Source: Paramacrobiotus metropolitanus (taxonomy: Eukaryota; Tardigrada; Eutardigrada; Parachela; Macrobiotidae). From it: a stretch of 64,000 bases of DNA. The notes below the pieces were generated by a model. That model made no database searches, was not told the DNA's origin, and saw only the letters and a program-made list of their open reading frames with translations. Shown one piece after another: positions 14,101 through 63,589 of this stretch. Each line of letters starts with the position of its first letter. Within the stretch, counting starts at the first letter, position 1. The stretch spans positions 186,001 through 250,000 of the forward strand of contig NW_026570297.1 in the NCBI RefSeq assembly GCF_019649055.1. The letters run 5' to 3'. The translations under genes and the position numbers were made by a program.

Positions 14101-15025
14101 TGACGGATGTCGAGTATCTGGCCGCCTTCCGCACCGTCATCATGCCCATTGCCGAGGAATTCTCGCCGGATCTGGTCATGGTCTCCGCCGGGTTTGATGC
14201 CGCTGCGGGACATCCCCCGCCCTTGGGCGGTTACCAAGTTTCCCCGGCCTGTAAGCGTATACCAAAATTATCTGCATTTTAGGGAAGAACTAGTTACTCG
14301 GCGGCATCTGTAACCGGCATTTTTGTTGTAGGTTTCGGCCAAATAACGCGGTTACTGGGAACGTTAGCGGGCGGCAAAGTGGCCATGGTGTTGGAAGGCG
14401 GTTATGATTTGGCGGCCATTTGTGATTCAGCCGAGGAATGTGTCAAGGCGTTGTTAGGGGATCCGGCACCACCCATCCGGGAGGAAGTCCTCGTTAGCAA
14501 GCCCAATGTCAATTGTGTGGAAAGCCTCGAGGAAGTCATACGAATCCAAAGTAAGTCAAACGATTAAATTACAATTAATTTTTTAACATATCTAATACTT
14601 TTAGTGCTTTATTTTACTATATACGAGTATTAGCAATTTTACCTAATACAGAATACTCGTATCAGTCGTAGGTGAGATTTTGCTTACCTTGTGTTTACTG
14701 GATTTTTAATCCTCAAAAAAGCAGAGCATATTTTTTCTGTCATGCATAATTTCTACCGTATCATGCATGGGATGATTAATAACCGATACGGATTAATATG
14801 AGTTTATTGCGAGTTGGAACTGTAAATTTTTTTGCAGTGCGATTTTGGCCCTGTCTGAAGCGGACTGCCGGCACAGTCGGTTGGTCTTTATTGGAAGCGC
14901 AGCAGCGTGAACGCGCCATGCAGTCTCAGCCGGAACCGCCCACGGGCGCCATGGCTTCACTATCTGTGGCCGCTATTGTGGGAAGTACCACTCGCGAGGA
15001 GGAACCCATGGATCAGGACAAGTGA
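5173..15025 (+). CDS. HDAC4: Class IIa histone deacetylase (HDAC4/5/7/9 type)
   Basis: Fourteen coding exons: 5173-5212, 5580-5912, 7817-7949, 8029-8135, 8794-8961, 9732-9841, 11111-11354, 11930-12616, 12847-13098, 13169-13326, 13713-13768, 13826-14250, 14332-14550, 14838-15025; 1039 aa, all phases agree. The N-terminus has a glutamine-rich coiled coil (exon 2) and the [14 protein letters not shown] region that in the family precedes MEF2 binding. All three classical 14-3-3 sites are visible: [19 protein letters not shown] and GRAFSSP. The C-terminal half is the deacetylase domain, with class-specific zinc ligands ([23 protein letters not shown]), catalytic [18 protein letters not shown] and [10 protein letters not shown], and a terminal MASLSV export-like motif. 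The family represses transcription as a signal-controlled nuclear/cytoplasmic shuttle. The residue that is His in vertebrate class IIa enzymes is Tyr here (LEGGYDL). The start is the first ATG after the acceptor at 5159; the second ATG, in exon 2, would drop about 27 residues. Confidence 0.95.
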
Positions 15026-21500: not shown

Positions 21501-24500
21501 CTCAGCTCATTTTACCTGCGCGCGTGTATAGAGGTCAGTCGCACTGGGGGCTACTGAATATGACTGCAAAACGATCGATACCGGCCCCACATTATTACGC
21601 GAATATATACCGACTGTGAGTGGCGCTGATAATCGGTTCCATACACCTATACATATATGGTTTTAGGAGATTATATTTCCGTGCGGAACATAAACATTTT
21701 CCACAATCTATTGATCGGTGGCCCTGTATTAAGCCGGAGCTATTGTATTTGATTTTCCTTGTAACTGTGTTGCAGATGCCGGTCGAACGGTGGGGAATAT
21801 TCAGATTAGAGTGGGAAACAGTACATATGCTGCGGAGAATAAGCTCTGCGCCTGGATACCGGAAGCCCTAGGTAAAGTTAGGATATATGCATTAGCGTCA
21901 AGGATGCTTCACCCGAAAGCCAGTAATATCAACACTACTTTTGTTGACAATTCCATTGATAAAGCGATCGCGCTCCGCTTTCCTATGCTTAAAGTTGTAC
22001 AAGCTATAGTTTTTAATTTCTTATTTATGCTGGAACTTATTTTTCACTGTGCTTGCAGCAGTACATTAATTCACCATTTTATTCCGTACAGTGCTGATAT
22101 CGATAACTACTTTTGTCAGTTCAGTTAGAATAAAATCCCAAATGAAATTATTATGCAACAAGATAGAAAATTAATGAATAACAAAAGCATGATCACCAGT
22201 TATCCACAAAAATAAAATTTTTCTGTCACTTCAACAATGGTAAACGTGCATGTCAAAGCAGTTTTCTTTACATTATAAAGCAGCCACTTGAGTTTTCGAA
22301 CAGTCCGGATATTTGTCTTTGAAATTATGTAATCGCTTTATTAGCTGAACTATTTTGACTCTCTTGTGGTTTTACCTTCGACTTAACCTAACACGGTGTA
22401 ATTTAGCAACCAGTCCAGCTACTTAATTTAATTTTTATTGGAAAGTTGCTCATAATTTTCATGCATTTTAATTTTAAGACCCAAGCGGTAGCTATAAAAA
22501 TTTCAAACTATCAGTTCTTTAAATGCAGTGTGCGATGTGTTCCAAGTTCGCAGGGTCAGAGAATTTTCTCACGAACACAGCACAGACTGCATTGTGCTCT
22601 GTGTTCGAATGCAGCGTAATCGTTCCACATAAATCACCAAGTATTGTCAAATTATCACTTTTATTGCTGTAAATGCATATATGCCGAATTCCATAAAAAA
22701 TCTGCTCATATTTCTTATATCAGAAAAAGAAAACTCTTCCAGCTACCGGTACAGAATATTGAAAAGTTTCTTTTTACAGACCCGTCCGCACCGCGGGAAA
22801 TACAGTGTGCAGTGCCATTACGTGGACGTTTTGTCAGTATTCATTCCGGGGACGCGGATACCGTTCTCTCTTTCTGCGAAGCCCAGATATTTTCCTCGCA
22901 AGGTACAGATCTATCACGAGAGACTACAGTCAAAGGAGTAAATGCCAGTGTTAAGCAGTAATAGAATTAACTGTTTTCCATAAAAAAATTCCCACCGAAA
23001 GAGTTTATGTCATATAACTGATCATTACATCTGCTTTTCTTCTTTGTGTTTCTCTAGAATTGCCAAGTCTCAAGTGTCCAGTGCAGTCGGCACAGACCTA
23101 CGTCTTTCAGCAGCGTTGCTACGATGTCCATGTGGAAGCGCGAACCAATCAGGCTAAAGCCGGCAAGAACTGCCAGGATAACAGCGGGACTCTCGTCACA
23201 AAGGTCACCGCTGCATCGCAGCAGTTTTTAGCCGGAATACTCAAACGGTTAGAGAACAGCAAACTCCTTTCGACACCGGCCAATGTCTGGATGGGCTTAT
23301 CACGGAATCTGGGAGCGCAGCCGTGGTTCTGGCACTGGCCTAACAGTATGCTGCTTTTTTCAGTTGGCAGTGTATATAAAAATAAACTAATAATCAAGAG
23401 TACTAATTTAAGTCGCCAAAATAAATTGTAAAGACAGCATGCACTGTTCACTATTGATGTATACGACTTTGTGACACTGTACTACATTAAAATTACTGTG
23501 TTGCTCAGTAAGCGGCGAAGGTTTTATTATGTTGCTGTATCTGCAGATGCTTCGCTCAACGAAACATTCTGGGGAGACGGGCAACCTAATGAGTAAGACG
23601 CTATATACGGGATAATAAATCCAAATAAGACACGACCGCAATATTTTTCTTGCAACAGGTTTGATAGTCGCGCTCAAGTTTGTACAGCATTCAGTAGCGA
23701 AATGGACTATAAATGGAACGATCAGCTGTGCAATGTGGAAGCCAATTGGATATGTCAATATGGTAATGGACAATCAAACAGTTTATGACTAAAAATAATG
23801 ATTCTGCGTTCGTATCAGCGCACAGATTTTCTACGATCAGAATACAAAAAAACCAGGTTTTCAGTTTATCTGCGAAATGTTGAGATTTTTTTAAATGCTG
23901 ATTCCCGACTTGCTGATATAATTTTGGTATTCGCATTAACTGTGAAGATGTAAAAAAATTCATTAGCAAAATTAGATTATTAAAATTTTGTTGTTTAGCT
24001 TCTGCTTACTTTTTATAACAATTTTTGTTCGATATGGGTAATTTCACAATGTACACCATTTTCCAGATTTTGTGCTCGCACGTACGCGTGCTATACTTCC
24101 ATTTTCAAAATCTCAAATTATACATAGATCCCGTCAGCTGTGGAAGCCCAGAAATTCGGCCGAATTCCACGATAACCGGCAAAAAACCCGGCTCCAAAAT
24201 TGGCGAGACCATTGAATATCACTGCGAAGTGGGTAATCAGATGATTGGCAGTCCTAACCGGACCTGTCTCCGCGATGGCAATTGGGGACCCACGGAAGCG
24301 GCAGTCTGCCGATACGTGGATTGTGGCGAACTACCCAAGGTTAAGGATGCCGTGACCTTCTTACTACAAGGCCGCACCACGTACGGCGCAGGGGGAGAAT
24401 ACGCGTGCGCCGGAAATCTGTCGTTAATTGGCAGCTCCCGAGCGTACTGTACCGGGGATGGATGGTCCGGTGCGCCACCGGAATGCCGCTGTAAGACTAA

Positions 24501-27500
24501 TCCATTTATCTTTGCCTGTCATGCAATAATTATTTTATCACTTAATTTAATAATTTAACTGATTCGTTGTCAATTTACTGCAGCAAATATTGTAAGAGCT
24601 TAAACTATAAAAAACGAAGATGCTTATTTCTTTTCTTTCGAGATAAAAAAGTTGATTCCATCAACATATTGAACGGTTTCATTTTCAAAGCCATTTTCTC
24701 AATCAATTTAACATGAATGATATTAATAATTTAAATTTTCGAATATTAAATAGATGTGAATTGCGGATTCCTCCCGGCCATTGCCAACGGTGCCGCACTG
24801 TTACTGGACAGTGGTACTTACTATAAAGCTCGCGCAAGATATGAATGTACGGAAAACTACACGCTGATTGGAACAACCATGTTGACCTGCAACGAAAACA
24901 GCTCCTGGAACGACAGTATTCCCCTGTGCAAATTAAAGGAATGCCCGCCGGTGCCGCCGTTAATCAACGGCCAAATCAGCGGCTCCAATTACTCCCTGGG
25001 CAATCAGTTGACCTATGCCTGCAACGAAGGATATTACTTGTCGAGTGACGTGCCCAGTACGCGTCTGTGTCTGATGAATCAGCAGTGGAGCACGGAAGCA
25101 CCGACATGCATACGTAAGAAGAATTGAAAAATTAAGTATTTCATGTACTATAGTTTGAAAACTTTGCATGAAGCTCGAAAATCTTGAGAAAGCTTGCAAA
25201 TCTGGAATGCCACTTTAAGGAACAAATTGAATTGCTTTACGTACGCTGCTTTTTTCAGTTGCCAGTGCATATAAAAATAAACTGACAGTCAAGAAAGCTA
25301 AATTAAGTCGCCGAAATAAATTATAATGACAGTGTCACAACATTGCGCACTACTGTAGATTGTAGAACTGTACGATTTGTGACACTGTACTACAGATATA
25401 TATTGACTGTGTTGTGTAGTAAGCGGCAAAGATTTTATTGTGTTGCTGTATCTGCATTTTGTTTGACACAGAAATATTCATTCAACGATCTTATTAAATT
25501 TCATGGAGTTGCTCTTTTTTTAATCTAGCTGTTTTAGCCTAGCTAGTAGCTCCCTGTTTTGTTAAATTATTCAACTTTGCTACTCTTTGGTACTCGTTTG
25601 CTGCACTTTTGCTGAACTGCCTTTCGACTAAAATTTGGTTCACGTTAATTTTATGTGACCGCGATAATCGCAGCTGGGTATCGGATGTGAATATTAGAAC
25701 ACGTGCAAATGCATGCACGCCCGGATTCGGCAACATTTGTGTCGTGTCCTGGATTTGACCAAAAGGTCATTCACAGTTCATTCCCCTTTTTGCAGCGATC
25801 GATTGCGGCATGCCGGAGCAGTTAGCGAACGGGACGTTCTCATTGTTAAACGACGGGACAACGTACAATAAAACGGTTATTTACGGATGCGAGAGCAATT
25901 TCGCCCTGCATGGTGATCAGCAAAGGATCTGCACGCTGGCGTCCGTATGGAGTGGTACCGCACCCAAATGCATCGGTACAATTGCATTAGCAAGAACTCA
26001 CTTAACTGGAGCGTAATGGTTTTATTGCAATAAATAGTAGACGCATGCATAGACTGCGTACAGCCATTTTGAAATTGTTTTATGAATGCGATAGTAAAAT
26101 TAATTCGATAGCTCTTATAGTTTTTTTCTGGATATACTGTCCGAGATTAAATTATTATAGTTGGTGATTTCTGCAAATATTTTGTAGTGTCCAGCTGTAA
26201 AGCACCCGATCTGGATGATAATCAGAGCTTCATCACGGCGAATTTTAGCGTGGGGAATATTGTGCAGTTTGGCTGTAAAGCTGGCTACCGGGTGCAAGGT
26301 GTCCAGAACTATACGTGCCATCCGGATGGCTACTGGATCGGCAACAAGCCTATTTGCCATTTCCTGGACTGTGGACCACCGCCGGTCGTGAAACACGGAT
26401 CCTACCGCTCCTCCGGCCCCGACCACGGGCTGGGCACCATTGTGACGTACAGCTGTGACAGCAACACGACACTACTGGGTGACTCCGTAATTTATTGCAC
26501 GGAGACGGAGACTTGGAGCGGATATCCACCGACATGTGTTGGTAAGCAGTATTACCACTGAAACGAAACGGTTAATGTAGCAATCAGACCGATGTTAGTA
26601 CGAGTAGATTTTAAAGCTGGTAATTATCAACGGAGCATCATTGGGTTAGCTTTCGTATGATAGCGTTTTCGATCACAGAAGAATCAGAATGACGTATTTA
26701 ATTTTAAGTTATCCGAATTCCGTACATTCGTAACGCGAAAGCGCTTGACGTTTACACGAGAAAAGTGTAGAAAGTCGTAGAGAAAGGGCATCCTTATACC
26801 ACTCTCCGTTTGCAGTTGCTAATCTGCAAGCAAGAAAACTGTACAAAACATTTGACTGAGTTTGCAATAAAAAGCGTTTAAATGTAGACTGACTTTGAAA
26901 AATATTTTTACGTACATACTTAATTTTGTACTTTTTACAATTTAAACCGAGGGTTTACCTGATAAAATGAGCTGCAAAAAGCTCCGAACCTGGAGCGAGT
27001 ACTTTAAAGACTTTTTATATTTACCTATACCTGTTTGCACACAAATGTTTTGGGCAATGATTCCGCAAATTATTAATTTGCTGTTTATTATAAAGGTTGC
27101 GGTCCACCGGAGTTCGTCAACAAAGCCGTCATCCGCGGAGACGACTACAGCCTAAACGGAACGCTCGACTACGCTTGCGAACCGGGTTACAAGCTAATCG
27201 GGCTCACGAAACGAACGTGCCTTTTCCCCGGAAACTGGACCGGTCTGCCACCGGTCTGCACAGGTAAATGCACGGCCGACGTAACATTGTGTACTTGCGT
27301 AATGACCCTTTCAGGCGTAATGCGTAAACGGTCAGGCTCAGTATTTCGGTATGTTGCACAGAGATCACCTGTCCGCTTCCACCCGCCCCGGTCAACGGAA
27401 CGCTGAGCAGTCGGAAGCCGGTTAAGGTGGGATCAGCCGTTAAGTTCCTCTGCAATCCCGGAAATGTCGTCATCGGCCCATCCGAAGCCACTTGTGCGCT

Positions 27501-29027: not shown

Positions 29028-31176
29028 ATGTACACCTTTATCCCAATCATAGCAGTATTATGCGGACTGTCAGCAGCCAATTTGCAGTTGGACTGCCGTT
29101 ATGATCCGCGTACAGGACGGCCGCGGTATGCTGATAGTAAGCACAATGTACTGGAAATGGCGACCTGTATGGGGCATACCAGTTATCTGGAGGCGTTGGA
29201 GGAAACCGGCAGCCTGCATATCCTGCTCAATAAAGGTATCACTGCTGCGTTCCGGAATTACGCGTTCCTGTTTAGTTGTAGCGGGGGCAGATTACAGAGG
29301 GGCGTTCAGCTTAGGGAGCAATGTTGTTTTCAGGTATTACTGCATGGATTCCTACCAATGATGCGTTTGCGAAAATCAGTACGGCCACACGCGATTTCTG
29401 GCATCATCACAAATCGTACTACAAGAACTTGATGAAGTAAGCTGCTCATCGGATGCAGGCTCATTTGCATCCATTGAACTTGATCGAACAGATAGAAAGC
29501 AATCTACAATTATTTTTTAACATCCTGTGCAAAGGATTTCGAGATACAGAATGTTTAAAATGTGCCGGTGCTTGAGATTTCACAAAGTTTTTCTGTTCCC
29601 ATCTGTTTGTAAGGTAAAGCGGAAATACACTCGAAGTATGTCTATGGATTTTGGCGCCGGCGGCGAAGTGTTAATTTTTGAAAACAAAACTTTTGTGCGC
29701 TTAGCCTTTCCGTGGAATAATACTACATGTAGAATTTGTAATTCCGTTTTAATTTTCGATTAAGAAATTCTTAATTAAAACAATATACGTCATTTTATAA
29801 AACTGAATAGGCAGGAAGTGCCAAGACAATATGCATGGTGCATAATTGTATTTATTATAGATATCACGTCATTAAGGGTCGCTATAACGTGCAAGATTTA
29901 GTCAACGATGTGGAGAGCTACGACACCTACGCTGAACCATGCGGCACTCGCGCTCGTTACGTTAATTTCGATGGTTTTAGCAAAAACGTAAGAATATGTC
30001 ACAAGGTGCTACTTTCAAGGTGCTACTTTCACTGCAGGATGCTTTTTCCAAAGTCATTTGATGCAGGCTTGGTAATTCGTGCTGAAACTCATTGCTTCGT
30101 ATCTATTGTGCCATTAGATCAGCGTGTATATGGGCGCGGTGATCAATTCCACCAATCATCAAGGATCAAACGGAGTGATCCACATTTTGGACGACGTGGT
30201 CAAACTGATGATGAATGAAACCATACTCAAAGTCATTCAAAAACACAGCCAATTCTCTAAAGTTCTGGAAGCGGTCAAAAGTGTCGATTTGAATGATCGC
30301 TTATCAGGTAAACGCATCGCTACGGATTATACATGCGCACTGCATGAACTCGTCGACTCGTAATCTGTTGTGAAACAAGAGTTCAAACTTTCCGATTATG
30401 GCGCACTAAGAAAAAGCAAAACAGTAACCACTAGATTGTAATTATCTCATTATCAGACCATGATCAAAAGGCGAGCTGCCATTTCGAAAAGCTGAAAAAT
30501 AATTTACCACAATATTAGTTGTAGTTTTTTTTTAAATTTTCACCCAAGATGTGCGTAACTGTAAAGAGCATCAGTGCTTAAAATTAAGCCGCTTATCTAA
30601 ACAATCAGCTGCATGAACATGACCTTTGAATCTGTTAAATGCGGCAAACATTTAGCGGACGATCCTCCCCGGACATTTTTGGCACCCTCTGATGATGCAA
30701 TTAGCAAATTACCGGACGGAGCATGGGAAAAATTAGTTAGCAATCCTGCTGCCCTTACCGGTAAATGCATGGTTTTTTTATTTACTCTCACGGTTACGGT
30801 GTGGATCGGTTGTTTTTGCTTTCTTTCATACGCAGAAGTCCTGTTGTATCACATTTCACCTCTGGGTTCCTGGTATTCCGCCGGTTTGGCTGTGGACGGG
30901 ATGTCGGTGCCGACGCTGAGCAAGAAAGGCAACTGGACCATTCGGGTCACCGACGGTTAGTTACCACATCAGCCGGCGCATGTGTTGTTCCAAAACCATT
31001 TCTGATTGTTGTTGTCATTGCACTTCATTCAAAATTTATCGTATTTGCTTACAGATGGCATCCAGGTGGACAAAGGGAATTTAGTTATCACTGATCTGCC
31101 GGCAACGAACGGCGTCGTGCATTCCATTGACACGGTCCTGATGCCGAAGTCTGTACGGAAGTGGCTGTATTATTAG
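29028..31176 (+). CDS. Secreted fasciclin-domain (FAS1) protein
   Basis: Seven exons, 357 aa: 29028-29235, 29334-29436, 29861-29987, 30118-30359, 30609-30760, 30836-30955, 31055-31176. An N-terminal signal peptide (MYTFIPIIAVLCGLSAA) is followed by FAS1 repeats. The first has GITAWIPTNDAFAKI and later GVIHILDDVV; the second has RTFLAPSDDAISKLPDGAW, LLYHISPLGSWYSAG and a terminal NGVVHSIDTVLMP. FAS1 proteins are extracellular adhesion or matrix molecules. No membrane segment or GPI-like tail is visible, so the protein is probably soluble or matrix-bound. A Cys-containing stretch of about 25 residues is inserted between the opening helix of the second domain (HSQFSKVLEAV) and its core. That stretch depends on a splice donor at 30360; an earlier donor at 30308 breaks the frame, so I chose the later one. 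Confidence 0.85.
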
Positions 31177-31589: not shown

Positions 31590-34500
31590 TCAGTCGTCCG
31601 ACGCAAGCAGCCAAAAAGTTGGAACTAATCCATAACTCTAAAGACGTTCGAGTCGAAAACGAAAACGATTACAAGCGATCGTAAAATTAACAGGCAACGA
31701 TAATAAACGAAACAAGCGAGCTTTTAGCACAGATTTGTGTTCTCAGGTCACAGTTATATTACCTTGAGATTAACAAGCCCCCGAAATATTAGCGAAAATG
31801 GTGGCTGATGACCGTGTAGCACTGCTTCCACTCTTGTGCTAATTTGGACGCTACCAGCTGATCATAACGAGAAAATTGGTACCTCTATGCATTGCGTATT
31901 ACGAGTACTGTATAACTGTACTCTTCTTACGGTACTCTTCGTTTACTGCACCTGGTGACGAACTAGCGAGGCGGGATGCCAGATTCACTGTGTCTCCAAA
32001 ACTGTAATAACATGCATTGTACAACAAAAGTTTCATAGCTCTCGTTATCAGTGATTGTTACTTCGACGGATTCGCTTAAATTCTTATCGATATCTTTTAA
32101 TGTGCCTGACTGGCATCAATCACTTTACTCACAGACAGTAATGTTTGGTCTTCGTGCCCACAATGCCGGCTACGACGGTGCCTATATGAAAGATAATTAT
32201 ACGGTTCATACCTTATGGACCGTCCACAACACAGGACTCTTAATTTTCAATTGTACTTTGTACAACAGATTAATATTAACGTAAGTAATTAACTAACCGG
32301 TGTGTATTCCTGTACATAATGCAATACGTTGCCCACCGAACATGTTACTGGCAACCGTCACTTGCGCTTGCAGCGCAAATAGCGCCACCTCCACAGCATG
32401 GGCATTTCCGTTGTTTTGCGCCGGAATTCCACCGACAACCTGCAATTATTAGTGCAACAATCGTGTATCCGATGACCGGTGCAAATTCAGTGGTTCTGCA
32501 AAGCGTTTCTACGTATGGAGCATTTGTGTAATCTATTGTTCTTGCTGTCTTTTAATTTTCAATGTTCTCAAGCCTCATTACTACAGTATTACCATACCAT
32601 ATAATCGTCCATAACAGATTCCACTTTAGAAATATTGTACTGCGCCAGACAATGATCCAGTTCCAAGTACAGATCATTGAGGACGTTGAAGATAGTTTTT
32701 GGATCACTGCTACTAGTTAACGCGTTGATATTATGGATTTTGTTAAAGGACACGGTGACACATTCGAATAGCTCCGGTGCTATAAACTCTTGTCTGAGCA
32801 ATCGTTGAGCAACCGTTCTAAGAAAATGCCAATTTTATTAATTTGTTTCTTCTAAAAAAGTTAGTCCGCGCTTGTCATGCATGGTTGCTGTGGCTGTTGA
32901 CCTTTGCTATACTTTTAGTGTTTACGTTAATACGGTAGACAAAAGCTTGTACGTTAATACGGTAGACAAAAGTGAGCAACCTGGGTAGAATTTCCTGGAT
33001 TATGAATGCCGATCGTTCCATTTCTTCGAGAAGCAAGCTGTTCTGTTCATAAAATCGTTTTTCTAGTTCGCTGGAGTACGAATCGAGTTTTTTCACCAAT
33101 ACGTCAAAATACGATTTATGACCATGTCGTCCAGATATGTTCTGAAGTATGTGCTGTACGGTGGCTAAACTGGGTCGTAACGCCGCGTCAGGGCGGTTGC
33201 ACTGTTGGATACAATCGAAAAACGCTTTCGACGGTGTATTTCCCGTTCCTAATAAAAAGTATAATATGCCCACATGGTGATATCCTGTAAGCAATCGTCA
33301 GCATACCAGTAGCGCCAATGCAAGCGAGCCTCTCATGCTGATGGTCATGATACGCCCGCTGCATCACTTCACACGTTAAACGTCCAAATGCCGCCACGTC
33401 TTCCGACTGCAGTCTGTTAGTCGCACTATGAAGTTCCGTTTCGTGGAAATTTATCCCGAAATCGGTGAGGCGAATGGCGTAGTGTGATGCCACCATGCAG
33501 TTGGTGGTGGTCAATGCACCATGGTGACCGATAATCGAAGCGTGTATAGCTATGAGGCCCTAAGAATATTTTACCTTTGGTACAACAAGCGGCATTGTTC
33601 TAATAATATTGAAGTAGAAAATTATTTTTAATGATCAAGTTCTTATGAGATCAAGTTCTTATGAGATCTCAGCGGCTGCTGGCTTTCTGAAAATTACGTG
33701 AACATCAAAATGTGTTTTACCTCAACGATGTCGAGTAACATTGAGAGGTGCAGCATGCTGTCGATCCACTTGATGTCGCACGTTAGCACATCTCGTAGAG
33801 AACCCTTTGGAAAGTATTCGCTGATTATCCACAAGGCGTCTGGTAGAAAGGTCACTCCGTACAGTAGGGCGACATGTTCGGTTTTCATGTTTATCCGCTA
33901 TGAAAGACCATATTTGTGCGACGACTAGTACAGTCAGGAGTATTATACGGTAGTAGTGACTAGTGATACCATCAGGAAATTCGCGTATCTAGTTGCACCA
34001 AGCGGGCTTCTCACCTACTCTAAACTACGGTAAAAACGTATACACTCACCGCAGTTAAAATAGTCAACTGTTTTTGTGACAGCAAACTGCTACGCTCGGG
34101 CCACGAAGCATTCCGACACCAAACTGTTTTTCCGCGATACGTGGCTTTCTCTAAAAATATTTATCTAAGTTTTTAAAACTTGCTTCCGGCTATATCCTAT
34201 GATACATTTTGCACTGCATGGCTTCATAGTTATCATAATTTTACGCAATTTATCGGTAAAAATTGATTACTTACGGCCACGACTGCTTCGTGGGACAATC
34301 TGCAGTAAAACAGGAAAACTGCATATATTATGGCACTATATGGTTTTATTAACATTGTGGAGAAGATCAATACAATGCCCAGCCTCACATCGGGAAGTTG
34401 AGATAAAGGGCGGGAAAATTCCAGCTCGTTAAACGGTATGATCCAGGATTGTCTTCCTCTGTGCTTCCTGGAATTTAAAAATATAATTATGCGCAAAATA

Positions 34501-36911
34501 AGTTGTAATAAATAAATGCCTCCAAGCACCAACCTATGCCAGTATATAGCGCCGATCGTAATTAAAATTATCAAAACGATTAGTAGCACTCCGGTTGACA
34601 GGATTTTCGGTCGGTAGTTATCTGCAACGTTTCGGATCGATAATTTATAAAACAAGTTGTCCTTGTAGCAAAAAGGGCAACAGCCAGATGATTTGTCTAG
34701 TTGTCACCTTGACATTCTTCAGCGTTTCCGGTGTATCCACAAGGGGGCCGGTTTAATGGAGCAGATGCATTTCCTGGCCAGTAAATACGGTCGACTAATT
34801 GTTCCATCTGGCTGGTGGTTTTATTCCATCTCAGAATTTCCTGTTAGAAGAAGAGTGTTTCCTGCACGGAGTGTCAGTTACCGGAATGTTGAGGTTTCTC
34901 TGTTGTATTAAAGGGAATTCCGTTTACTTGGAAATGACTAGAGCTATTATCCGGGAGTTTTTTGATCCCGTACTCATTATCCTTATCACCCTGATCGTTT
35001 AGTTTAACACAGCCAATCAGCGAGCAGAATGTCCGGTTCCATGCTCTGCGTGCTAAATCTCTTGAAGCCCGACGAGTATCTTCTGCGATCAGCTGCGAAA
35101 TACAATAACCTGAATATCATTTGAATTTCGTTTGTGAAAATTGGCTTCGTTGTGCACAATTTGCCAGAACCGCTATATAAATTGTAGTAACTGTGACTAA
35201 CCTCCGCAGCAACCATAATGCCTTCATAGAAGCCGGTAACTAAAGCAGTAACCTGCGAGAAGTTCATCTTGTTAATTAGAAATTCATCTTTATTAACTAG
35301 ATTAAATTACTGTACTTCATCATTCTTTGGATATCGTAAGCCATAATCTGACCAAGAACGGTTCTTGATTTCTGACAAGACCGGTGCTTTTACCGCACTC
35401 CATTCTTGATGCCGGGTGACTAGCAAGAGATACTGGTATGCGTCTCGTACATCCTGCAAATAGATTCATAATCTTGTAGGAGATAGGGAAAAACGCTCGC
35501 ATCAAATCTAAAAAAATTCTCTCAAAGGTTGTCTGTGTACATCATCATCGGGGTAGCCCAGATCCGGGTAAATTCCAAAGGCGGCTGTGGATCGAAAGGG
35601 CTCGTACCCAATAAAAACCTGTGCGGAGAGTACTGCTGGTTGACAACATCTTGAGTTCAAAAGGTAAATCAGGAGAGCTGCCGATAACAACTTGGATATC
35701 TAAACGTTGTGATACGTACATAGTCACCTTTAGCCATCCCCAGTTTCTGCGCGGCTTTCTATGAGAAAATTAGTTTGGAATCGAATTAATTTAGCTTACA
35801 GTTAGAAGCGTCAGAAATAATTTTACCATCACGGAACGAAGACGAGAACCATGCGTCAGGAATATAAAAACTGCAAAAGTGCGGTAGTAATTTAAAGACG
35901 ACAAATTCAGTGCGGAGTCATACTTGATCTTAAAAAAACCTTGGCAGGAACTTACTTCTACTAGACTTGGCAGCCTGAAGCAAAAACTGTCCATGTTGTG
36001 GATTTGTGATAAAATTGTAATGCAAATGTGTATAGCTAATCTGCGGAGTTTTTTCCAGAAGACGGAGCAGAGAACGGCATTGCAGTTGCAGAAAATTAAT
36101 CTCCACTGCCGCTTCATCACAGATGAGAGTGATGCTCGTCCAGTTGAAATAGCGCAGCACATCGAGCATCAAAGCCGACACTTCCAGCTGGCGATATGGG
36201 ATGAATCGAAGGAGCGAGGGAAAGCGAATGCGTGAATCTAACACGGGATCCGTGCCACCGCTATATTTAAGGAGGTCATGCAGTATTTGCTCAAGAGAAT
36301 CGTTACGACAATAACAAGCGATTACGTACGAAGTGACAGTGAGGATGTTCCATTCTACAAATGCAAATAAAGCGCTGGTAAATTGCCAGTTTATTTCCGG
36401 TTATTTACGGTAAATATCTGACCTCGGGATAAATCACTCAAGGCAACAGCGGCTTCGCTGCAAGCTAGAAATAAATCAGTTTTCTGATTTTGGTACTTCC
36501 CATAATTCAAGACAAGAAACGTGATGTATCAGTAACATCAGTTGGATTTATCAGTCATAAGTCTCACTTACCAGAAGCAAGAAGGACAATTCTATCGGTA
36601 GGATACATCACGGTGTAGTTGTAATAGAATTGCGCAAATAAATGCGCAGCGCGTGTTTCCATGGCCGGACAATTTGTCACATTGTGGCTTCTCAAGGTGA
36701 TCAATGAGGAGTTTATCTGAGAATAACGAGAACTGACTTCTTCCAGCGCCATATCAATAGCGGCACCGATATAGTCCAGGCTGTACGGCAAGTGCGATTC
36801 AGCATGAATGGATACGAATACCACATTTACGGTGTTGTTAAGGTCATGGGTTAGTGTCGTGGTCATCAGCAGCGATACAAAGCAACAAACGACCAATCCG
36901 TACAAAAACAT
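31590..36911 (-). CDS. Receptor guanylyl cyclase with altered metal site (paralogue 1)
   Basis: Twenty-two exons, 998 aa, all phases agree: 36911-36572, 36464-36423, 36354-35956, 35870-35827, 35758-35720, 35618-35541, 35453-35316, 35252-35202, 35092-34928, 34840-34708, 34621-34534, 34467-34389, 34148-34050, 33897-33721, 33559-33307, 33248-32981, 32817-32598, 32439-32298, 32181-32133, 32001-31952, 31857-31763, 31637-31590. Order: signal peptide; ANF-receptor ligand domain (LRYFNWTSITLICDE, LGMAKGDYVFIGYEP, NRTFCSLIGCVKLND); membrane segment in exon 11; kinase-homology domain (SEYFPKGSLRDVL, LTDFGI); dimerisation helix; cyclase domain. GIHTG, YCLFGDTVN and ASRL are kept, as are the guanine-recognising Glu (KVES) and Cys. 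The usual FSDIVGF motif reads FNKIHNI, so the first metal Asp is Lys; the second Asp (MDDYM) remains. Natriuretic-peptide-type receptors make cGMP at the plasma membrane, but this one may be catalytically weak or a partner subunit. Confidence 0.9.
32923..32972. repeat. Direct repeat of 23 bp, two copies
   Basis: tacgttaatacggtagacaa... occurs at 32923 and again at 32950, 27 bp apart, inside the cyclase intron just after exon 16. Probably slippage or local duplication; it does not touch coding sequence. Confidence 0.85.
33633..33664. repeat. Tandem 16-bp duplication
   Basis: gatcaagttcttatga occurs twice head to tail in an intron of the receptor cyclase. No function is suggested. Confidence 0.85.
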
Positions 36912-39899: not shown

Positions 39900-41160
39900 T
39901 TAACGGCTTCGAAGGCGATGTAATCCAAATTTCGAAGATGCAGGTAATTCACCACTACTGGGTTGGACTGAGCGAAATGTGGTACGGCAGAAAATGCGTC
40001 GTATCCCATTCTTAGTATTGCTGACAATGTCCCGATTCATAAGCAGCAAGAATACCTGTGCAATAAGAGCAACATATGAATTCATCAATGCTTAACGAAA
40101 GCTTCTTGGTTCAGATAATATACGGCATTTTATGTGGGCGAGCACCTTATATATTTAATTTGGAGAACGTTATGTAAGCTTTGTGTCTGTTTGTTTTGTT
40201 TGACTTGCTACATAGCGGCGTTCCCATTAGGTTCAGTAACAAAAACTTTTATAGGCATGAGCTCATGATGTTAAAGATGCACTTAAGCCGGTTAACATAT
40301 TTCCTTACCGGACTTCCGACATATCCGATTTGTTGCAGGACGATAAACCATCCAGCTCTGATTTTATCCGAATACCAGTAGTAAGGAAACCCATACGCCA
40401 CAACCAGAACCGGCAAATACCACAACAAATACCACAAATACGATGCGAAAAGTAAACGAAACAAATGCATCCGCTTCCGCTGCAAACTGTTGCCTTGCCT
40501 TCGTCCCTCAATTTGATAACCGACGATTACTGCCAGGTATATGATGCCTTGCAATGCCAGCGGTAAATAACCACCCAGGGTGGCGACAGCGTTACTAATT
40601 TCCTGCGACGTAATGCTAATGCGTCCGCAATCGTACCGTCCCCCGAAATCCCGTTTGCCAAATACACCGCCGATACCCCACAATCCGGGGAGGTTCACGG
40701 CCAAACCGATGCCCCACGCACTAACTAAAAAGACCATGGTCGCCAGATTGGAGGTGACACGACCGTACTGATGGGGAAAGATCAACGCAACGAAACGGTT
40801 AAAGGCAAGAAAGAGGGATGCCCAGGATTCCGCGCAGATGAACCACTGTCCGAAGAAGTACATGGTGGTGCAGTTGAAGGTTGTAATGGGCACGCCCAGC
40901 CACACTGCCCAGCCGGTGATAATGTACAAGGGATTGCTGACCCCGATTTCCAGGGCGTGGAGTAGTTGTTGATGGGCCAGAAGGACGCCGGAACGCGTGC
41001 GCAGATGCGAACGAAGGATCAATGTAAAGAATAAGGTCAAGGAGAGCACCACGCCGGTTACGGAAATCAGGCTGAATGTGGAGATTAAGGTGATCAGTTC
41101 ATTGCGGCGCCGGTCGAAGGTCTGAGATAAATTACCCTGGACGGTTGTTACGTTGATCAT
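39900..41160 (-). CDS. Rhodopsin-like GPCR, orphan
   Basis: Exon 1 (41160 to about 40313) encodes an extracellular N-terminus with two N-glycosylation sequons (NVT, NLS) and six clear membrane helices. TM3 ends in FNRFVALIFP in place of the classical DRY. A second exon, about 40070-39900, supplies TM7 (LMNSYVALIAQVFLLLMNRD) and a basic tail. The strong donor (ccg|gtaagg) and the only nearby acceptor (ttaag|ca) do not agree in phase; a weaker donor at agt would fit. So either an unusual splice site is used or the last helix is out of frame. Small orphan receptors of this kind often detect peptides or chemicals; the ligand cannot be told from sequence. It is divergent from the pair at 54-61 kb. 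Confidence 0.75.
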
Positions 41161-42136
41161 TTTTTGGCAGCCTTGGTAAAATGAATTACTATTTTTATCC
41201 GCTTAAGAATGGAAAATGTGTTTCGCTTCTGCAAAACGCTACGTATACAGCAGATACATACATACATTACATTACATAACGCTTTTGTTAAAGAAAGATT
41301 AGACATAAGAATTCACACTGAGAAAATGTAGTGTTGCCGATTGCTTTCCTCGATTTTATAATTATTCACGTTCAAAAGAAGTATTAACGTCAGCCCGGAG
41401 CCACATGATGGGTGTACGTGCTTTTGAAGAGACAGTAGTGCAACATCGCAGCGGTTACCATGAAAAGGTCACCCGGGTGGCAAGCCACAGGGAATTCTTA
41501 CGATGCCTAATCATTCGTCTTGATTAGAAGACCCGTAAGCAATGATCCATAAATCCGAAGAAAAGCAGGTGGAGTATTATCTTGTGGGTGGAAAATTCAT
41601 AAGCTGCATCACCACGCTTAAGCCTTAATGCAGACCCTTCAAAACATTTAGTCATGAGATGATTATTAATACAGACAGAAATGGTGCATTTCTCCGTTTG
41701 AAGGCTTATTCAAATGAAAATGCGCAGTTAAAAGGCACTACTACATGCGCACTTGATGAAATGATAACTGAGCCCTACCTGCTGTTTAAATCAATTAGTA
41801 CGGCATGTAGAACAAGTAAAGCCAAGCGGAAATATAACAGAAATCATGATCGCCGTCTTACATTTTGCAACAAAATAAAAAAAATCAAAATTTGATCTTT
41901 TTTTTATATTTTGAAATACATGTGAAGATAAAGATATTTTATTATAAAAATCAATTTTGTACTGGAAAAAAACAATTAATAGCGTCCATTACTATAAACA
42001 ATTACGAAGCAAGCGACAATTGTTGCCCTCCGCTTTAGCATATACAGTAATATTACTTTCCCTGCTACAACATCTTTACCGTGTGTACAGATACAAGTAC
42101 TAATTTTCGGACTCACTTAGACAAATTATGCTTTTG
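41161..42136. other. Intergenic region
   Basis: Upstream sequence of the GPCR and the region beyond the 3' end of the DUF4139 gene. AT-rich; I see no exon with domain content and no RNA gene. The frame at 41659-41895 (+) is lysine-rich in its last third because of A-runs and is probably chance. Confidence 0.4.
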
Positions 42137-42197: not shown

Positions 42198-45100
42198 TTA
42201 ATCTGAACTGCTGTTTTTAACTTCGGTTTCGTAAATATTCTTGTCTGACGGATATTCCAGCCGATGTTTAACCGTCCAAGTGTAGGATGAATGTTCTTTA
42301 ATGCTCAGCGTGTGCTCGATATTGCTTTCGTTATTCAGTACCAGTCCTTTTGCTTCAGGGCGCTCACGCGTTAGCGGTGGATCGATCAACGTGACCTAAA
42401 GCAATAAAGGCGATAACTTACTACTTATTTACGCGTGGGTTGATGTTTATTGGTACCTTAAGTTTTTCTTCCGTACTGCGGGGGACTTGTTCCATAATTA
42501 CAACATGTATCGGATCAGGGCGGGTATTTGTCACCTGAATTTCTTGCACAAAAGTCACTACTTTGGTTTTATTGAGCATTCCACTTTGCTCGTTGAAACG
42601 ACGCACAGGTCGGTACTTGACCTTAACGGCTGGATCCACACCCAAGGAGCAGGAGAATGTTTCCTGCGGACTGATTGCTTTTATATCCGTCTAGAAAAAA
42701 CATGTACTGGATCAGGACAACAACATGCCAATATCATTACTTTCATAAAATTAAATTTTACGCAATATCTATGTAGTTTTGCATTAAGTACAAGATTAAT
42801 AATTACCGTTGCAACAAAATTGGCTCCGAAAAAGATGCTTGCTGGACCCGGTAAAATCGGATAGGAACTGGTGTTGACAGCCTTGGCCTCCAGGAACGCC
42901 AGTTCTGCCTTCTTTGGTACGATCTTGTACTGAATTTGCGGTTGCATCTCCAGCGCTCCCACGGTCACTTTATGCTGCGACCCATCACTGGGAACCGTTG
43001 TCGCTTTAGATATTTCGAATGAGGTTGTAATAGCGGAACCTTGCACCTGCACATTAACCCGATGAACGGTAGGTTAGTCATGTCTCACATGACGGTACTA
43101 ACACAGTATTAACAGCGTACCACCGTATGCTTTCGTGCTTTCTGCTCTCAGGCGTCTCAGCCATGATTTAGGCGGGAAAAAGTCGTAATTTTAAATTGCA
43201 CTACTGCTCGTACTTGCCGATCTTGCAGTCTACAGAAACGGACGTTAAATTATCCGCGAATTCTGATCCGGCATTCCGATGTGTGAGGCAACGCGACGTG
43301 CGGTTTGTGGAGTTAAAAGTCACCGGCATGGCCGGAGGTGCACAATTGCAGCTGAGAGTCTTACCTGTCGGTACAGACTGCTCACTGCCGGCACCCTCCG
43401 CCTGTGCCCGATTTCTTCGCCCCCAAACAAACCTTCTTGTAAAAATTCGGTCCGGTCAAAGTGGTAGGTCGGATATAGCGCTCCACGCAGTCACTCTTCC
43501 ACCTTCCGGCGCGCTGGATCTGCTCCTTCGGTAGGGATTGCGCCGCGGCCTCGGTTGCCGCTCCGATGCGGAAGCTGTGTGTGCTGATCCGGGCGCAGTC
43601 TGGGTGATCGTGCAATAGCGCCTTTAGAATTCGGTCAACCGTCGCGCGCGTTAGGTACTTTCCGCTCTGATAACAGAAGAAAGGGGTGGTGGTGCCGCCT
43701 TGCTTGATTCTAACGCGGTGGTAGTCGGTGATGGCGAGCACTGGGCAGATAGACCGGTTGGTGGCGGTCAGCGTTATCTTTGCGCCCGCAGCGCTCTGAT
43801 CGGTTTTGGTACGTTTAAGGGAGATCGAAACCGTATTTCCTGCAATCACCACGTCTTGGAGAAGGAGAGTAGAGGCGTCGTCAAACTTGCAGCTGGACTT
43901 GGACGCTAACTCGCTGATGCGCAGGAAACCAAAGAACGCTACACAAAAGGCGCACCACACCATGACTGCTTCTTCGGCGTTGCCGTGCACTGAGATGCGC
44001 GATTTCAGCGTGCGCATGATGTCCAGCGTGATGGGCAGCCGCTTGTCCGGTCTCGGTCCGCGCAGCCTCTTGAAACCGCTCACCGCACGCACGACCAGGT
44101 CGTCGGCAGTAGGGTTAAGCAGGCCGGCTTCCCGGTGACTGTTGTGTACCGCTGCGAGGTAGACTTTCATGGTCCGGTAGGCTGCGTTCTCTTCTTATAA
44201 GGAGGCGACGTACGCAGCAACGGTAGAGGGAGTGGCTGGCAGAGACATGTGACCCTTTGCGGCGCAGAACCGTACAAAATGTGTCATCGATGCCCTGTAC
44301 GTAGCTCTGGAGGAGTCAGAGATGTGGGCGTTGAGGAGCCGCCGCAGGGTGGCGCTCCGTGGTACGTAATCTGCAGGCTGGGGAAAAGGTCCGGGTGAGG
44401 TGTGGGCGTACTGAGCGCTGCCGGTGCGAGCGATCGGAACCGTGACATCTGAAACCGAGACAATGCGTCAGCAATGCCGTTGTCCACGCCCGGTATGTGT
44501 TTGAGCGTTAGCGTGAAATTATTAGTGGCCGCCGCCCACGTCATTCTTCGCATCAGATCGAGTACACCCGGGCTGCTGGAGCGCAGGTGTGCCCATGCCT
44601 CCACAGCGCCGGCGTTATCGGTGTGGAAGATCACTCTCTTCAGCCGCAGCTTATGCCCCCAAACAATTATGGCGAGCAGGATGGGCACCATCTCCATGTA
44701 CTCTATCGAGAGTCTGGCCCGCAGCACCCACTCCGGCCACCTGGACTGGAACCACTCATTGTTAAAGAATGCTCCCAATCCCAGCGTGGCGGACGCGTCG
44801 GTGTAGAGATGCAGTATGTCAGAAGTGGTCCAGTCTGGCTGCAGGAAGGAGGCTGTCCCGTTCCACTGTGGCAGGAAGTCCCTCCACCAGTCGAGATCGG
44901 AGCGGAAGTCCAGGCTGATAGGGATTTCACGTTGGCCGTGGAAGTCTGCCAAGAGCCGTATCGTTCTGCGGGTAAACAGACGACTCGAGGGGATGCATTT
45001 GGAGGCAAACGTCAACGTGCCGATCAAACTCTGCAGCTCGGTGACTGTACAGGTGGTTTTTTCCTGCCAGTTGTTGAGGTTATCCATGATCTCCGCTAGT

Positions 45101-48100
45101 TTGCCGTCCGGCAGACTCAAGGTCTGTGCGCACGAGTCCAGCTCGATGCCGAGAAAAGTCAGACGGGTCGCGGGTCCTTCGGTCTTGTCAACCGCCAAGG
45201 GAACCCCGAGCTCGTTGCACACTTCCCGCATCGAAGTCATCAGAACTTGGCACTGCCTGCTTCTGGGGTTGCCAATGAACAGGAAGTCATCCACGTAGTG
45301 GAGGAGAGACTTGATGCCGGCGCGCCTTTGTACGCACCAATGAACCGCCGTTGAGAAAAACTCAAAGATGTATGGGGCGGAGCGGCAGCCAAACAGTAAC
45401 ACTACGTCGAAGTAGTACTTACCGTTAAATTGGTAACCCAGGAGATTCCAATCAGCCTTTCTTACGGGTATCAGCCGGAATGCGGACTTGATGTCCATTT
45501 TCCCCATCATTGCTCCCTTCCCAGCGACTGTGAGCAGCTTCACTGCGTCGTCGACGGAGCAGTACTGGAGTGGCATTTCGCGACCGTCTATGTAGTCGTT
45601 CACGCTGATTCCGGATGGCTGTGACAGGTCCAGAATCGTGCGATAGCCGCCGTCCTTCTTCGGTCGGCATCCGAGCGCGTTTACCACAAAGCACGGCAGC
45701 GGAGAAGTCAGAAACGGTCCCACAGAGTGTCCCGCGGCAACTTCCTTTTGTATGTTCCGCTGCAAAGCGTCGTGGTTGATCCGCGCAGAAAGCGAATTCT
45801 TGGTGTGGCGTGTGAACTGGGGTCCTCTGTACCGGATGTCAGCTCCAGTGCGAATTGTCGTGGAGATGAATCGGCGGAGGCTATCGTCTGGGTGTTCGGC
45901 GAGCATGCTCTCAAACGCATCAGCACGCAGTGGCGTCTGAGCATTTGCAGGCACTACCGTGAACTCAGTGTGAGTCCGACTTGCACTGCAGCGCCCGGTG
46001 GTCTTTGTCGCGGCACTTTGCGCAGACGTGCAGGCGTCCTTGACTGCATGGATCGCTACACCGGAACTGGTTATAGTTGCGGCAGACTTCGCCCTTCGCA
46101 GCTGGGGCTGGTCGAAAGGGCTGATGGCGTCCCGTCTGTCCCTTGTGCGGAAGCGGGCATTGTGCGATGAAGTGCCCAAGCTCCCCACAGTTGCGACATC
46201 TGTCCGTTGGAGCAGCACCTTTCTTCGGACGCGGTTCAGCTGGAGCGTCGCTGTGGCCTTCCTCCGGGACGGCGTTCTGTATGTAGTCCGCATACGTGTC
46301 GTCGTGCCGGCGAGCCCACATATCGTATTCGTGCGGGTGACTGGTCATGAGGGACCGGAACTGCCGGTCGTATTCGAGCCAATGGGCGGTCGGGACCCCC
46401 CGCTCGACATAAGCCGCAATAAGGTCTTGGTACTTTGCCAACGCTGTTGCCAGTTGTGGAGTTACCGTGACGCGGTAGGCCAAAAAGACGGAGAACGCTC
46501 GGATCCATGATGGAAAAGAATCAACGACGGATCTGGTTTCGTTAGGCTTAAGCACCACATTCCCCTTCGAGATCACCATTTTAGAGCCTCCATGTTTAGG
46601 CCTTTCAACTCGGTTCTTGGGCAGCAGGCAGTCGAAGTCGACGTAGCGCGACGGATCGAGCAGTCGCCTACGAATCCGGCTCGGAACTGCAGGTAAGTGC
46701 TCTGCTTGAGCGCTGTGCCGTTCTCCTGCAGACGTCGACGCAGTTTGGCCATCCCCAAATTGTCGCTGACGGGGGTGTGGACCCAGGCGATCGAAAACAT
46801 CGCGGCGGACCAGTGAGCGGCTGCGGGATGACGATGAGCGGCTGCTGCTGCTGTGCTTACCTCTACGATGGTCTCCGTGATGAGCTATCCTCTCGGTAAC
46901 GCATATTTCTATTGCCGTCTGCCAGAGACTCAATTTCGAGGCCGGCGTCCCCGGTCGCGGGCGAAGTAACGCGAGGTTCCCCGGTCCCCTTGGCTGCTAT
47001 CGGCGTTACGATGTCGATAAACTGCTGTATTTTCTCGTTCTGGCGATCCATCAGCATCTTCCAGTCGGGCTGCGCTTGGTCCACAACGACCACTTCGGAC
47101 CGAACAGTGGGACCAGGCGATCGGGATCGGCGGCGCTTTCGACCCGGTCTCGATTTTGGCTGTTGCTGCGTGTTGCTGCTGGCGACATCCCGGGCAGAAC
47201 GTGTTCTCCGCGGGCTTGCCACGCGGGTGCTTGGCGCGGTTCTCTTTTTTCCAGCCATAATCTTAGCGGTAAAAGAAAAACTCAACGATTTTGTGACTTA
47301 GGGAGTCGAGAATTTTCGGAGAGCTTTTCGGAATTATTGAAAATTCTGCAGTTAGCAACAGGTGAAAACCGTTATGGCAAAACGATAGCGATGTGCGATG
47401 CGCACAGGCAAGATGCACACGGCCCGAACAGCGCCGGCAGGTACAGGGATGTAAGTACAGGGAAAAGACAGAATTACGCGGTAATTTAATTTCCGCTAAT
47501 TCTTAACTGACATTTAAACTGCACAGTGAAGGGTAATGCGCTATTGCGCCTTGAGATTCTTAATTAATTCAAGAATAGGTCAGTAGCTTCAAAAATTTCA
47601 CTCTGTTGCACTTGCAACAGAGTGAAATTTTTATTATATTACAAAGTTTTTATTTACTTTTTATTTACAAAGTTTTTATATTACAAAGTTTTTATATTAC
47701 AGCGTTTTTATTTTACAAATATTACAAAATTTTTATTATATAATATTATATTTGTATGAAAAGACCCTTCTCGGGAAATGAAACGGCGTCTTAAAAGGAC
47801 AGTTTGAGAAGCGGTATGCCGTACGTAGTCAATCAGCGGCTTTTAACCCGTTGACGGGCATTGGCGTCAGGACGCAACATGGTCTTCTGAATTTTTTTCC
47901 CAATGATTGGGAACAGTTAATGAATACCACTTAGCATAATTAGCAATAAGAGACTTTAAAGCAGCAGTAAAAACATAATTCAGACTTATATCTCAAGTTA
48001 TTTACAAATGACCGTTGCCCCAAAATGGTTAATTTCGGACTTTTCAAGCTCTCGCAGATCTTACTAATTAACTAATTAGTGCATGAATAGTTAAACCAGA

Positions 48101-55528: not shown

Positions 55529-55794
55529 GCTTCGGGTAACCTTTACAGATAAACGGTCACGAGGTTGTACATTGTCGATGAGAAATTTAATTAGTGAGAG
55601 GAAGAAGGCATCATACAGTCGCTGTCTTGAAAATTTAAAGCAAAACCATCAGTCGATATAGAGAAATCACTGAAGTACGTAAATTGCAAGTGAGATGTCA
55701 AAATCTCCAAAAGAATTGTATGCGACAGCGGGCGTCTGCCTCAAAAATTCCGCTTAGGAGTGAGTACTCGTGCCGGCAGATTTGCGCAAGCACT

Positions 55795-61966: not shown

Positions 61967-63589
61967 TCATGAGCTTGCAGACAGTAGCTTTGCGGGTTCT
62001 GTTATGAATACCCAGTAGGTCTTCATTAATCCTCTTCCCTGAAATAATTGATAACTCATTTGTTCATCGCCCTAATCTAATTACTGCCATACAATGGCTT
62101 ACAATATTACAGTATTCCATTTTAGAATGAATTACGTTAGCTGTACAGATTTGTTTACTAAGTCGCTTTAATACATCGTAAATCTATACTGTACTTTGAG
62201 CGAGATCGTTCCTCGACACTGGAAGCGAAAGATTGGCAAGGTATCCACAAGGAGCTTTGTATCTGGACTGGCCTGAACCTTTTGACCTTTAAAAGAACGA
62301 ACATATCACTTGTCTATAAGTGAATTATCCACAAATAATTCGACTTTTTGGTACCTTCACACGTTGTCGAAAGACGTGAGGTAACATTCACAGTATCGCC
62401 GAATCTGCAGTAATACCGCTGATTGAGAATAGAGTTAATAAATGACTGCAAATTCGCAGAGCTTACAAGCAGTATCTCTGCATGCGAATACCAACGATCC
62501 CGGCAACCAGAGGTCCTGCAACGCAACCACAGTGCGATTTCATTCTTACATAGATGTCAAAAAGCGTTGATCGGGATTAAAGGCAAACCATAGGCGTACC
62601 GCTATGGATGCCGACACAAACTCGGATTTCTTGTCCACCGAATAGCGTGCTGGACATTGACTGCACAACGGCGCATCCGAACTGCAGCGCTTGACCGGCA
62701 TGCTGGCTGCCCGCACAGCGCACGGGAACGCCGCTGACAACCTAATCAATACGTACAAGTACACAAACTATAAACCACGAAGTAATTTATCTGATCGCTG
62801 GTTTACTTAATTCAGTGCGCTGATTTCTTATGCTTGTAATACCGGTAATTACATATCTGTGCACGGAATTGCTGATCACTTAATTTAGTTGTCTAGTTTC
62901 GCACCATGTAATTTTCTGAAATCGTTTCCACTTTGTATACGTCAAAGCGCGACAAAATCCGATCCATGACAATATAAATTTCGTTCAAGATGTTGAACAG
63001 CGTCTCGGGATGACCTTCGGTGGTGATGAAACCAATGTCGCAAATCTTGGTAAATATCACTGTCGCGCTTTCGAACGACTCGGGAGGTATAGATTTTCCG
63101 AATCTTAACGCTTCCGCTATGGTTCTAAAATCATAAATATCGCTATCACAAAAATATACTATAGTATTACCAACCCAGTTGTTAAAAGTTTCGAATTACA
63201 TACGGAGGAAATATTTCCTTCAGTAAAGCTGCGGACTTTGCCATCTCCTCGACAAGGAATCCATTCTGCTCGTGGAAACGAATCTCCAGTTTGTTGGCAT
63301 AGCTGTTAATGTTGTCTAGGAGCAGGTCGAAATACGACTTATTGCCGCTGCGATGGGATACTTTCTCCAGAATTCTGCGGATGACGGTAATCGACGGCCG
63401 TCTGGCCGCGTCTTGCTCGCAGCATCGTGCCGCTAATGACATTGTACAACACGTCGACGAGCGTGGGCGAGGCGTTGTATGGGGATGGCCTCTAATTTCC
63501 TTGTTGACATATGCTGCAATAACGCACGTGCTGGGATTAAACGACACAAATTTGACAAAGTCAAGCGCCACAATACTTTCTATTTTCTA
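61967..63589 (-). CDS. Receptor guanylyl cyclase, paralogue 2 (5' part outside window)
   Basis: Visible exons: about 63589-63204 (its start is uncertain; the alignable part begins near 63465), 63124-62905, 62741-62600, 62515-62467, 62404-62355, 62286-62195, 62038-61967. They encode the end of the kinase-homology domain, the dimerisation helix (NKSYFDLLLDNINSYANKLE) and a full cyclase domain ending KTYWVFITEP. Kept motifs are GIHSG, RYCL, FGDTVN, TSRL and the guanine-reading Glu in KVET. FSDIVGF reads FTKICDI (first metal Asp to Lys) and IGDAY reads ISENY (second Asp to Glu), so two-metal catalysis looks unlikely for a homodimer. Four internal exons have exactly the same lengths as in paralogue 1 (220, 142, 49, 50 bp). 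The ligand-binding and membrane parts are not found up to the right edge; they may lie beyond it. Confidence 0.85.

Follow-up and report, generated by a model that had tools for sequence, protein, structure and literature searches.

A receptor guanylyl cyclase of the tardigrade Paramacrobiotus metropolitanus with one side of its active site lost: a candidate beta-like subunit of a heterodimer

What can a receptor guanylyl cyclase (rGC) do when a lysine stands in place of its first metal-binding aspartate? This question is raised by a gene, here called W, in a window of 64,000 nucleotides from the tardigrade Paramacrobiotus metropolitanus (assembly GCF_019649055.1, contig NW_026570297.1, positions 186,001 to 250,000 of the forward strand; coordinates below refer to this window). 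Judged from its sequence and from those of its paralogs, W is probably a beta-like (C2-like) subunit of a heterodimeric rGC, a reading to which we give a probability of roughly 0.6.

The rGC architecture of W is complete, with an extracellular ligand-binding region, a transmembrane segment, a kinase-homology domain, a linker, and a cyclase domain. The hand-built model, made from DNA alone, runs on the minus strand from an ATG at 36911 to a stop codon at 31592–31590; its 1007 codons contain no internal stop, and all 22 introns are GT-AG. Pfam searches matched ANF_receptor (4.5e-23, residues 50–418), the kinase-type domain PK_Tyr_Ser-Thr (1.6e-12), and Guanylate_cyc (6e-40, model positions 4–182 of 183), and the alignment of the cyclase region to NPR1 spans query residues 2–198 of 201. 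The domain order rules out a soluble guanylyl cyclase (GC) or an adenylyl cyclase. A first model with a truncated cyclase domain, ending at 31899, was rejected after the exons of a neighboring gene pointed to two further 3' exons. The kinase-type region at 33307–33559 (minus strand) is without the WTAPE stretch present in the paralog L062 and is either shortened or partly missed by the exon model.

Each active site of a class III cyclase lies between two subunits. In soluble GC, the alpha subunit is described as giving D486, D530, and R574, and the beta subunit as giving E473, C541, N548, R552, and K593 (PMC3591389). Following this division, the active site of each domain was written as an eight-position code, in which the first Asp, the second Asp, and an Arg represent the C1/alpha (metal) side and, after a slash, Glu, Cys, Asn, Arg, and Lys represent the C2/beta (GTP-reading) side. 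W reads KDC/ECNRK. Its first Asp position is Lys (FNKIHNI, where NPR1 has FSDIVGF), the Gly and Phe of the same motif are also altered, and the Arg of LRIGIHTG is Cys (LCTGIHTG), such that two of the three C1 residues are lost. In contrast, the C2 side is complete: SKVES and HYCLFG carry the guanine-reading Glu and Cys, VNLASR carries the Asn and Arg, and RGLVNLK carries the Lys. W also retains the second Asp (SVMDDYMV) and, of 19 further invariant columns of the cyclase domain, 17. The loss of the first Asp and of the C1 Arg leaves W without the full class III catalytic set in one chain, and for this reason W is called an rGC for its architecture, not for competence as a homodimer. Five complete C2 residues, together with C1 residues lost save the second Asp, are the pattern of a beta-like subunit.

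A preliminary description of this locus had placed a complete rGC gene with clean splice sites at exactly the span found here, and had recognized the Lys as well as the retained second Asp, Glu, and Cys. All of these points are confirmed, although its length of 998 residues is replaced by 1007. The changes at the C1 Arg and at the Gly and Phe of FSDIVGF go beyond the residues that it listed.

A second rGC gene, N, lies on the same strand, with its 5' part beyond the window end. Its code is KEC/ECNRK, in which all three C1 residues are lost and the C2 side is kept; the first Asp is Lys (FTKICDI) and the second is Glu (ETISENYM). The Lys is therefore common to both genes, although by different codons (AAA in W and AAG in N). 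In a spliced alignment to W that included L061, N covers 985 of the 1007 positions with 394 identities (40%). The identity is 42% in the extracellular part, 36% in the kinase-type region, 40% in the cyclase domain, and 49% in the linker (32 of 66 residues), the highest among the five parts compared. By the same alignment, the N model has 26 introns, compared with 22 in W, and the integrity of its upstream part is likely but not proved, because the aligner, which allows no stops, can route an intron round one.

These residues bear on the suggestion that W is an active homodimer with unusual chemistry, in which the Lys assumes one of the metal roles. The second Asp is retained in W, but coordination of the metal is described as requiring both Asp residues (PMC3591389), the C1 Arg is lost in W, and N has neither Asp; the probability of such chemistry is practically negligible. 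The half that W keeps would be useful only opposite a half that gives the metal residues, and pairing with another rGC is therefore the simplest reading. W would dimerize through its linker with an rGC that keeps the metal half, which may be an intact rGC or one of nine alpha-like rGCs. One working site would then combine the Glu, Cys, Asn, Arg, and Lys of W with the two Asp and the Arg of the partner, and the second site would be dead. We infer that the Lys, facing the retained Asp in W or the Glu in N, could form a salt bridge that replaces the metal and closes the dead site.

The pattern of loss was compared across the genome (169.8 Mb in 533 contigs), which has at least 200 exon-level Guanylate_cyc matches. 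As 150 of 849 candidates were scored, the cyclase family is larger than the portion read. Cyclase domains in 105 partly overlapping loci were modeled by a purpose-built, splice-aware profile alignment, which bars stops and frameshifts but can place an intron round one, and the intactness of each paralog is thus not proved by the alignment alone. From 75 chains, we removed the duplicate L072b, L028 (adenylyl-cyclase-like by its residues), L025 (a soluble GC alpha, used as reference), and the incomplete or misjoined L004, L020, L021, L080, L090, and L098, the last of which reads DSS with Glu, Cys, and Asn before misjoining; L067 and L069 were completed afterwards, giving 66 rGC-type domains. No cyclase domain was found in L105 and no cyclase chain in L066, which had been read as a relative. 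With C1-lost defined as loss of a metal Asp and C2-lost as loss of the Asn or Arg, 32 domains are intact, 24 are C1-lost, nine are C2-lost, and one (L023) is both. Fifty-three domains were taken roughly by Pfam score (32 intact, 12 C1-lost, eight C2-lost, and one both). The other 13 are W, N, and matches of a search with the W protein (12 C1-lost and one C2-lost), which inflates the overall C1-lost share. Besides W and N, an rGC linker helix was found in all 34 loci with at least 350 upstream bases, by a profile iterated once on the same loci, and the soluble GC alpha L025 scored 5.9 bits against this profile. The remaining 30 rows, for which upstream sequence is short or was not read, were counted as rGCs from the tree. 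Among the intact domains, L005/L006 and L008/L009 (G000:C71) are recent copies (pS 0.23 and 0.04), and the family is therefore still duplicating.

In the C1-lost genes, the loss is confined to one side of the active site. All 24 of these genes retain Glu, Cys, Asn, and Arg, and 23 of them retain Lys. Without L067 (EDR/ECNRK) and L069 (ADK/ECNRK), the usual residue is found at the first Asp in five of 22 genes, at the second Asp in 15, and at the C1 Arg in six, compared with 22 each for Glu, Cys, Asn, and Arg and 21 for Lys. Counted as cells, the C1 trio of these 22 genes is kept in 26/66, compared with 402/414 at the 19 other invariant columns. The nine C2-lost genes, L013, L070, L072, L081, L082, L086, L087, L096, and L099, form the mirror image: all nine retain the complete C1 trio as well as Glu and Cys, whereas Asn is kept in 0/9, Arg in 1/9, and Lys in 2/8. 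In seven of the nine, the Arg is replaced by Lys, as in the soluble GC alpha L025 (NNVTIANKF). Because the classes were defined by the Asp and by the Asn/Arg, the independent evidence lies in the C1 Arg and the Lys. Among 63 genes, uncorrected for relatedness, Asp loss accompanies C1 Arg loss (counts 16, 7 and 1, 39; p 9.8e-9), and Asn/Arg loss accompanies Lys loss (counts 7, 2 and 1, 53; p 5e-7). The heterodimer reading is favored because the metal side is lost, the GTP-reading side is kept, and a mirror-image class is also present. The preliminary description had offered three options for W, namely a pseudocyclase, a ligand-binding decoy, and one half of a heterodimer; side-specific loss and the mirror class speak for the last and make the first two less favored.

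Several observations weigh against this conclusion. The mutual exclusion of C1 and C2 losses at the gene level is weak, with p 0.14 when L023 is included among the 63 genes and 0.042 without it, and neither of the remaining cross-side tables reaches significance (p 0.70 and 0.098). The five C2 residues are kept in 109/110 cells, which is no better than the 402/414 of the other invariant columns (p 0.32), and constraint at the level of the fold could therefore also keep them. In L064 the first Asp and the Lys are both lost, and L023 (SDR/ECNKA) has losses on both sides, the sole such rGC among the 66. In addition, W lies on a long branch (1.69), its kinase region is matched only in part, and a phylogenetically controlled test of the losses has only one to three independent pairs and is without power.

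Some of these points are what would be expected if W were a catalytically dead receptor, acting as a ligand-binding decoy, scaffold, or dominant-negative partner without a share in any active site. The metal half is gone in both W and N, their extracellular parts and their cyclase domains are conserved to about the same degree, L023 suggests that such receptors may exist, and the C2 residues are not preferentially preserved. A pure decoy, however, needs no catalytic residues, yet the GTP-reading side is kept almost without exception in the C1-lost genes, and a dead receptor is a fairly unlikely explanation. Within the family, L023 (G000:C22:517964-521347), in which a kinase-type region and a linker are present by eye, is of all the domains read the one most likely to be a true pseudocyclase.

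A further explanation is that the partners of W are intact rGCs, whose output it chiefly halves or tunes, either by leaving one site or through allosteric control from the dead site. Intact domains are common in this genome (32/66), and for the chytrid RGC1/NeoR pair, light-triggered activity is described as rising about ninefold once the metal site in the non-catalytic half has been disabled (PMC12264004). However, tuning alone does not predict that mirror-image, alpha-like rGCs (9/66) should occur in the same genome, and we regard it as improbable. For a beta-like W, the candidate partners with an intact C1 side in this genome are the 32 intact and the nine C2-lost domains. Five of the alpha-like domains form a starred clade (L081 and L087 on G000:C98; L013, L072, and L082 on G000:C6), in which Asn is replaced by Q, A, or V and Arg by Lys, with the metal-side residues kept; these are candidate partners as well.

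A tree of the 66 domains and the soluble GC alpha L025, built with the eight active-site columns left out, places W and N in a starred clade (99/93) within a starred clade of 11 rows (98/92), all of which are C1-lost. The first-Asp position in these rows reads A, A, A, L, C, G, G, K, K, G, and E, with Asp in 0/11. A check proposed in the preliminary description, whether the Lys is fixed in a clade, was run within this one genome: the Lys is common to W and N, and the other nine rows have A, L, C, G, or E. The 24 C1-lost rows need seven state changes, three of them forced by starred branches; for the 10 C2-lost rows (soluble GC alpha included) the corresponding numbers are four and one. Half-site states therefore probably arose several times, with only the forced numbers being firm.

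Selection in this clade is purifying. A one-ratio codon model gave an omega of 0.097 for seven of the 11 rows (W, N, L062, L063, L064, L065, and L068), with synonymous sites saturated, and values of 0.043–0.075 for W, N, and L064 are imprecise through saturation. Between W and N, pS is 0.86 and pN is 0.40, and because of this saturation the dN/dS of W alone is not measurable, such that the proposed dN/dS check is informative for the clade but not for the single gene. Of the C1-lost pairs tried, L062/L063 and L053/L071 have measurable dS, with dN/dS of 0.217 and 0.138, respectively, and the rest are saturated. These values also bear on the explanation that W is a young pseudogene or relaxed gene in which stops have not yet accumulated. 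Its long branch, its partly matched kinase region, and its unmeasurable dN/dS could be so read, but 1007 open codons over 23 exons, a Lys common to W and a neighbor of 40% identity, the 17/19 other invariant columns kept, and an omega of about 0.1 over seven clade rows all argue against decay. The preliminary description had likewise argued against simple decay; the open frame, the common Lys, and the clade omega make it very improbable.

Among known systems, soluble GC alpha1/beta1 has the same division of the active site. The beta1 subunit has Gly at the first Asp position; W resembles beta and the C2-lost rGCs resemble alpha. W differs from soluble GC in being a membrane receptor, with a ligand-binding and a kinase-type domain, and in having Lys at this position. 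By their published description, ODR-1 and DAF-11 of Caenorhabditis elegans are akin to W as a proposed half-site heterodimeric rGC: they are described as an obligate heterodimer whose single site takes catalytic residues from both monomers, and the pair is put forward as the first rGC of this kind (PMC5225109). A review notes that some C. elegans rGCs are without Mg- or GTP-binding residues and that pH-responsive fusions carrying the intracellular parts of ODR-1 and DAF-11 were functional only when co-expressed, with formal proof in native cells awaited; it also cites hints of homodimers (PMC8045692). Unlike this single pair, 24 beta-like and nine alpha-like domains were read here in one genome. 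Each heterodimer of the chytrid membrane-sensor cyclases RGC1, RGC2, and NeoR has one catalytic site, as proposed for W, and the catalytic domains of RGC2 and NeoR are described as inactive singly and active together (PMC12264004); these cyclases differ from W in their rhodopsin sensor domain and in being fungal. The best-scoring solved structures for W by sequence, NPR1 (GC-A) and GC-C, keep FSDIVGF and IGDAYM in the alignments, unlike W, and mammalian rGCs are described as homodimers (PMC5225109).

The coordinates of W, N, and other features of the window are collected in Table 1. The three 7TM reading frames between W and N have weak matches to the chemoreceptor family Srx and possibly form a cluster of sensory receptors. 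The GC-rich stretch with the reverse transcriptase looks like a retroelement, which we take to be of the DIRS type. No RNA families or tRNAs were found at threshold within the 64-kb window.

Table 1. Features of the 64,000-nucleotide window.
Feature	Position	Strand	Basis or remark
rGC gene W	31590..36911	-	23 exons, 1007 aa; hand-built spliced model and Pfam
W exons 1-10: hydrophobic signal-peptide-like start and extracellular ligand-binding region	34708..36911	-	start by eye
W transmembrane exon, ILSTGVLLIVLIILITIGAIYW	34534..34621	-	by eye
W kinase-homology region, exons 12-16	33307..34467	-	Pfam match at residues 577-670 only
W exon 17: end of kinase homology and dimerization linker	32981..33248	-	linker by eye
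W catalytic exon with FNKIHNI, SKVES, MDDYM	32598..32817	-	
Lys codon AAA replacing first metal Asp of W	32739..32741	-	
Second metal Asp of W, kept, codon GAC (SVMDDYMV)	32607..32609	-	
W remaining catalytic exons with LCTGIHTG, HYCLFGDTVNLASR, RGLVNLK	31590..32439	-	aligned to NPR1; exons 32439-32298, 32181-32133, 32001-31952, 31857-31763, 31637-31590
rGC gene N, catalytic exons	61967..63124	-	spliced alignment to W; stop position by eye
Rhodopsin-family 7TM reading frames	40252-41202, 54962-55648, 60481-61050	-	
Reverse transcriptase (PF00078) and tyrosine-recombinase-like (PF00589) reading frames	43385-46344	-	GC-rich stretch
Sushi repeats	24019-24555	+	
Fasciclin domain	30601-30957	+	adjoins W
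Histone deacetylase domain	13791-14279	+	

Lineage-specific expansions of rGCs are known (PMC1435932), as are heterodimeric rGCs. A literature search, outside of which most subscription papers fall, found no report of so many complementary half-site rGCs in one genome. In the score-ordered sample, the metal half is lost but the GTP half retained in 12/53 rGC-type domains; the reverse holds for 8/53. As a tentative extension, and one that we hold to be possible rather than probable, the family may be a combinatorial receptor system in which several lineages are obligate GTP-reading or metal-giving halves, including the W lineage with a Lys-Asp or Lys-Glu salt bridge that shuts the dead site. 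If so, cGMP would be made only when two different receptors, and hence possibly two cues, meet. If half-site rGCs do pair, this genome would be a natural set of predicted half-enzymes for the study of heterodimeric rGCs and of coincidence detection, and the repeated evolution of an asymmetry like that of soluble GC would become directly testable.

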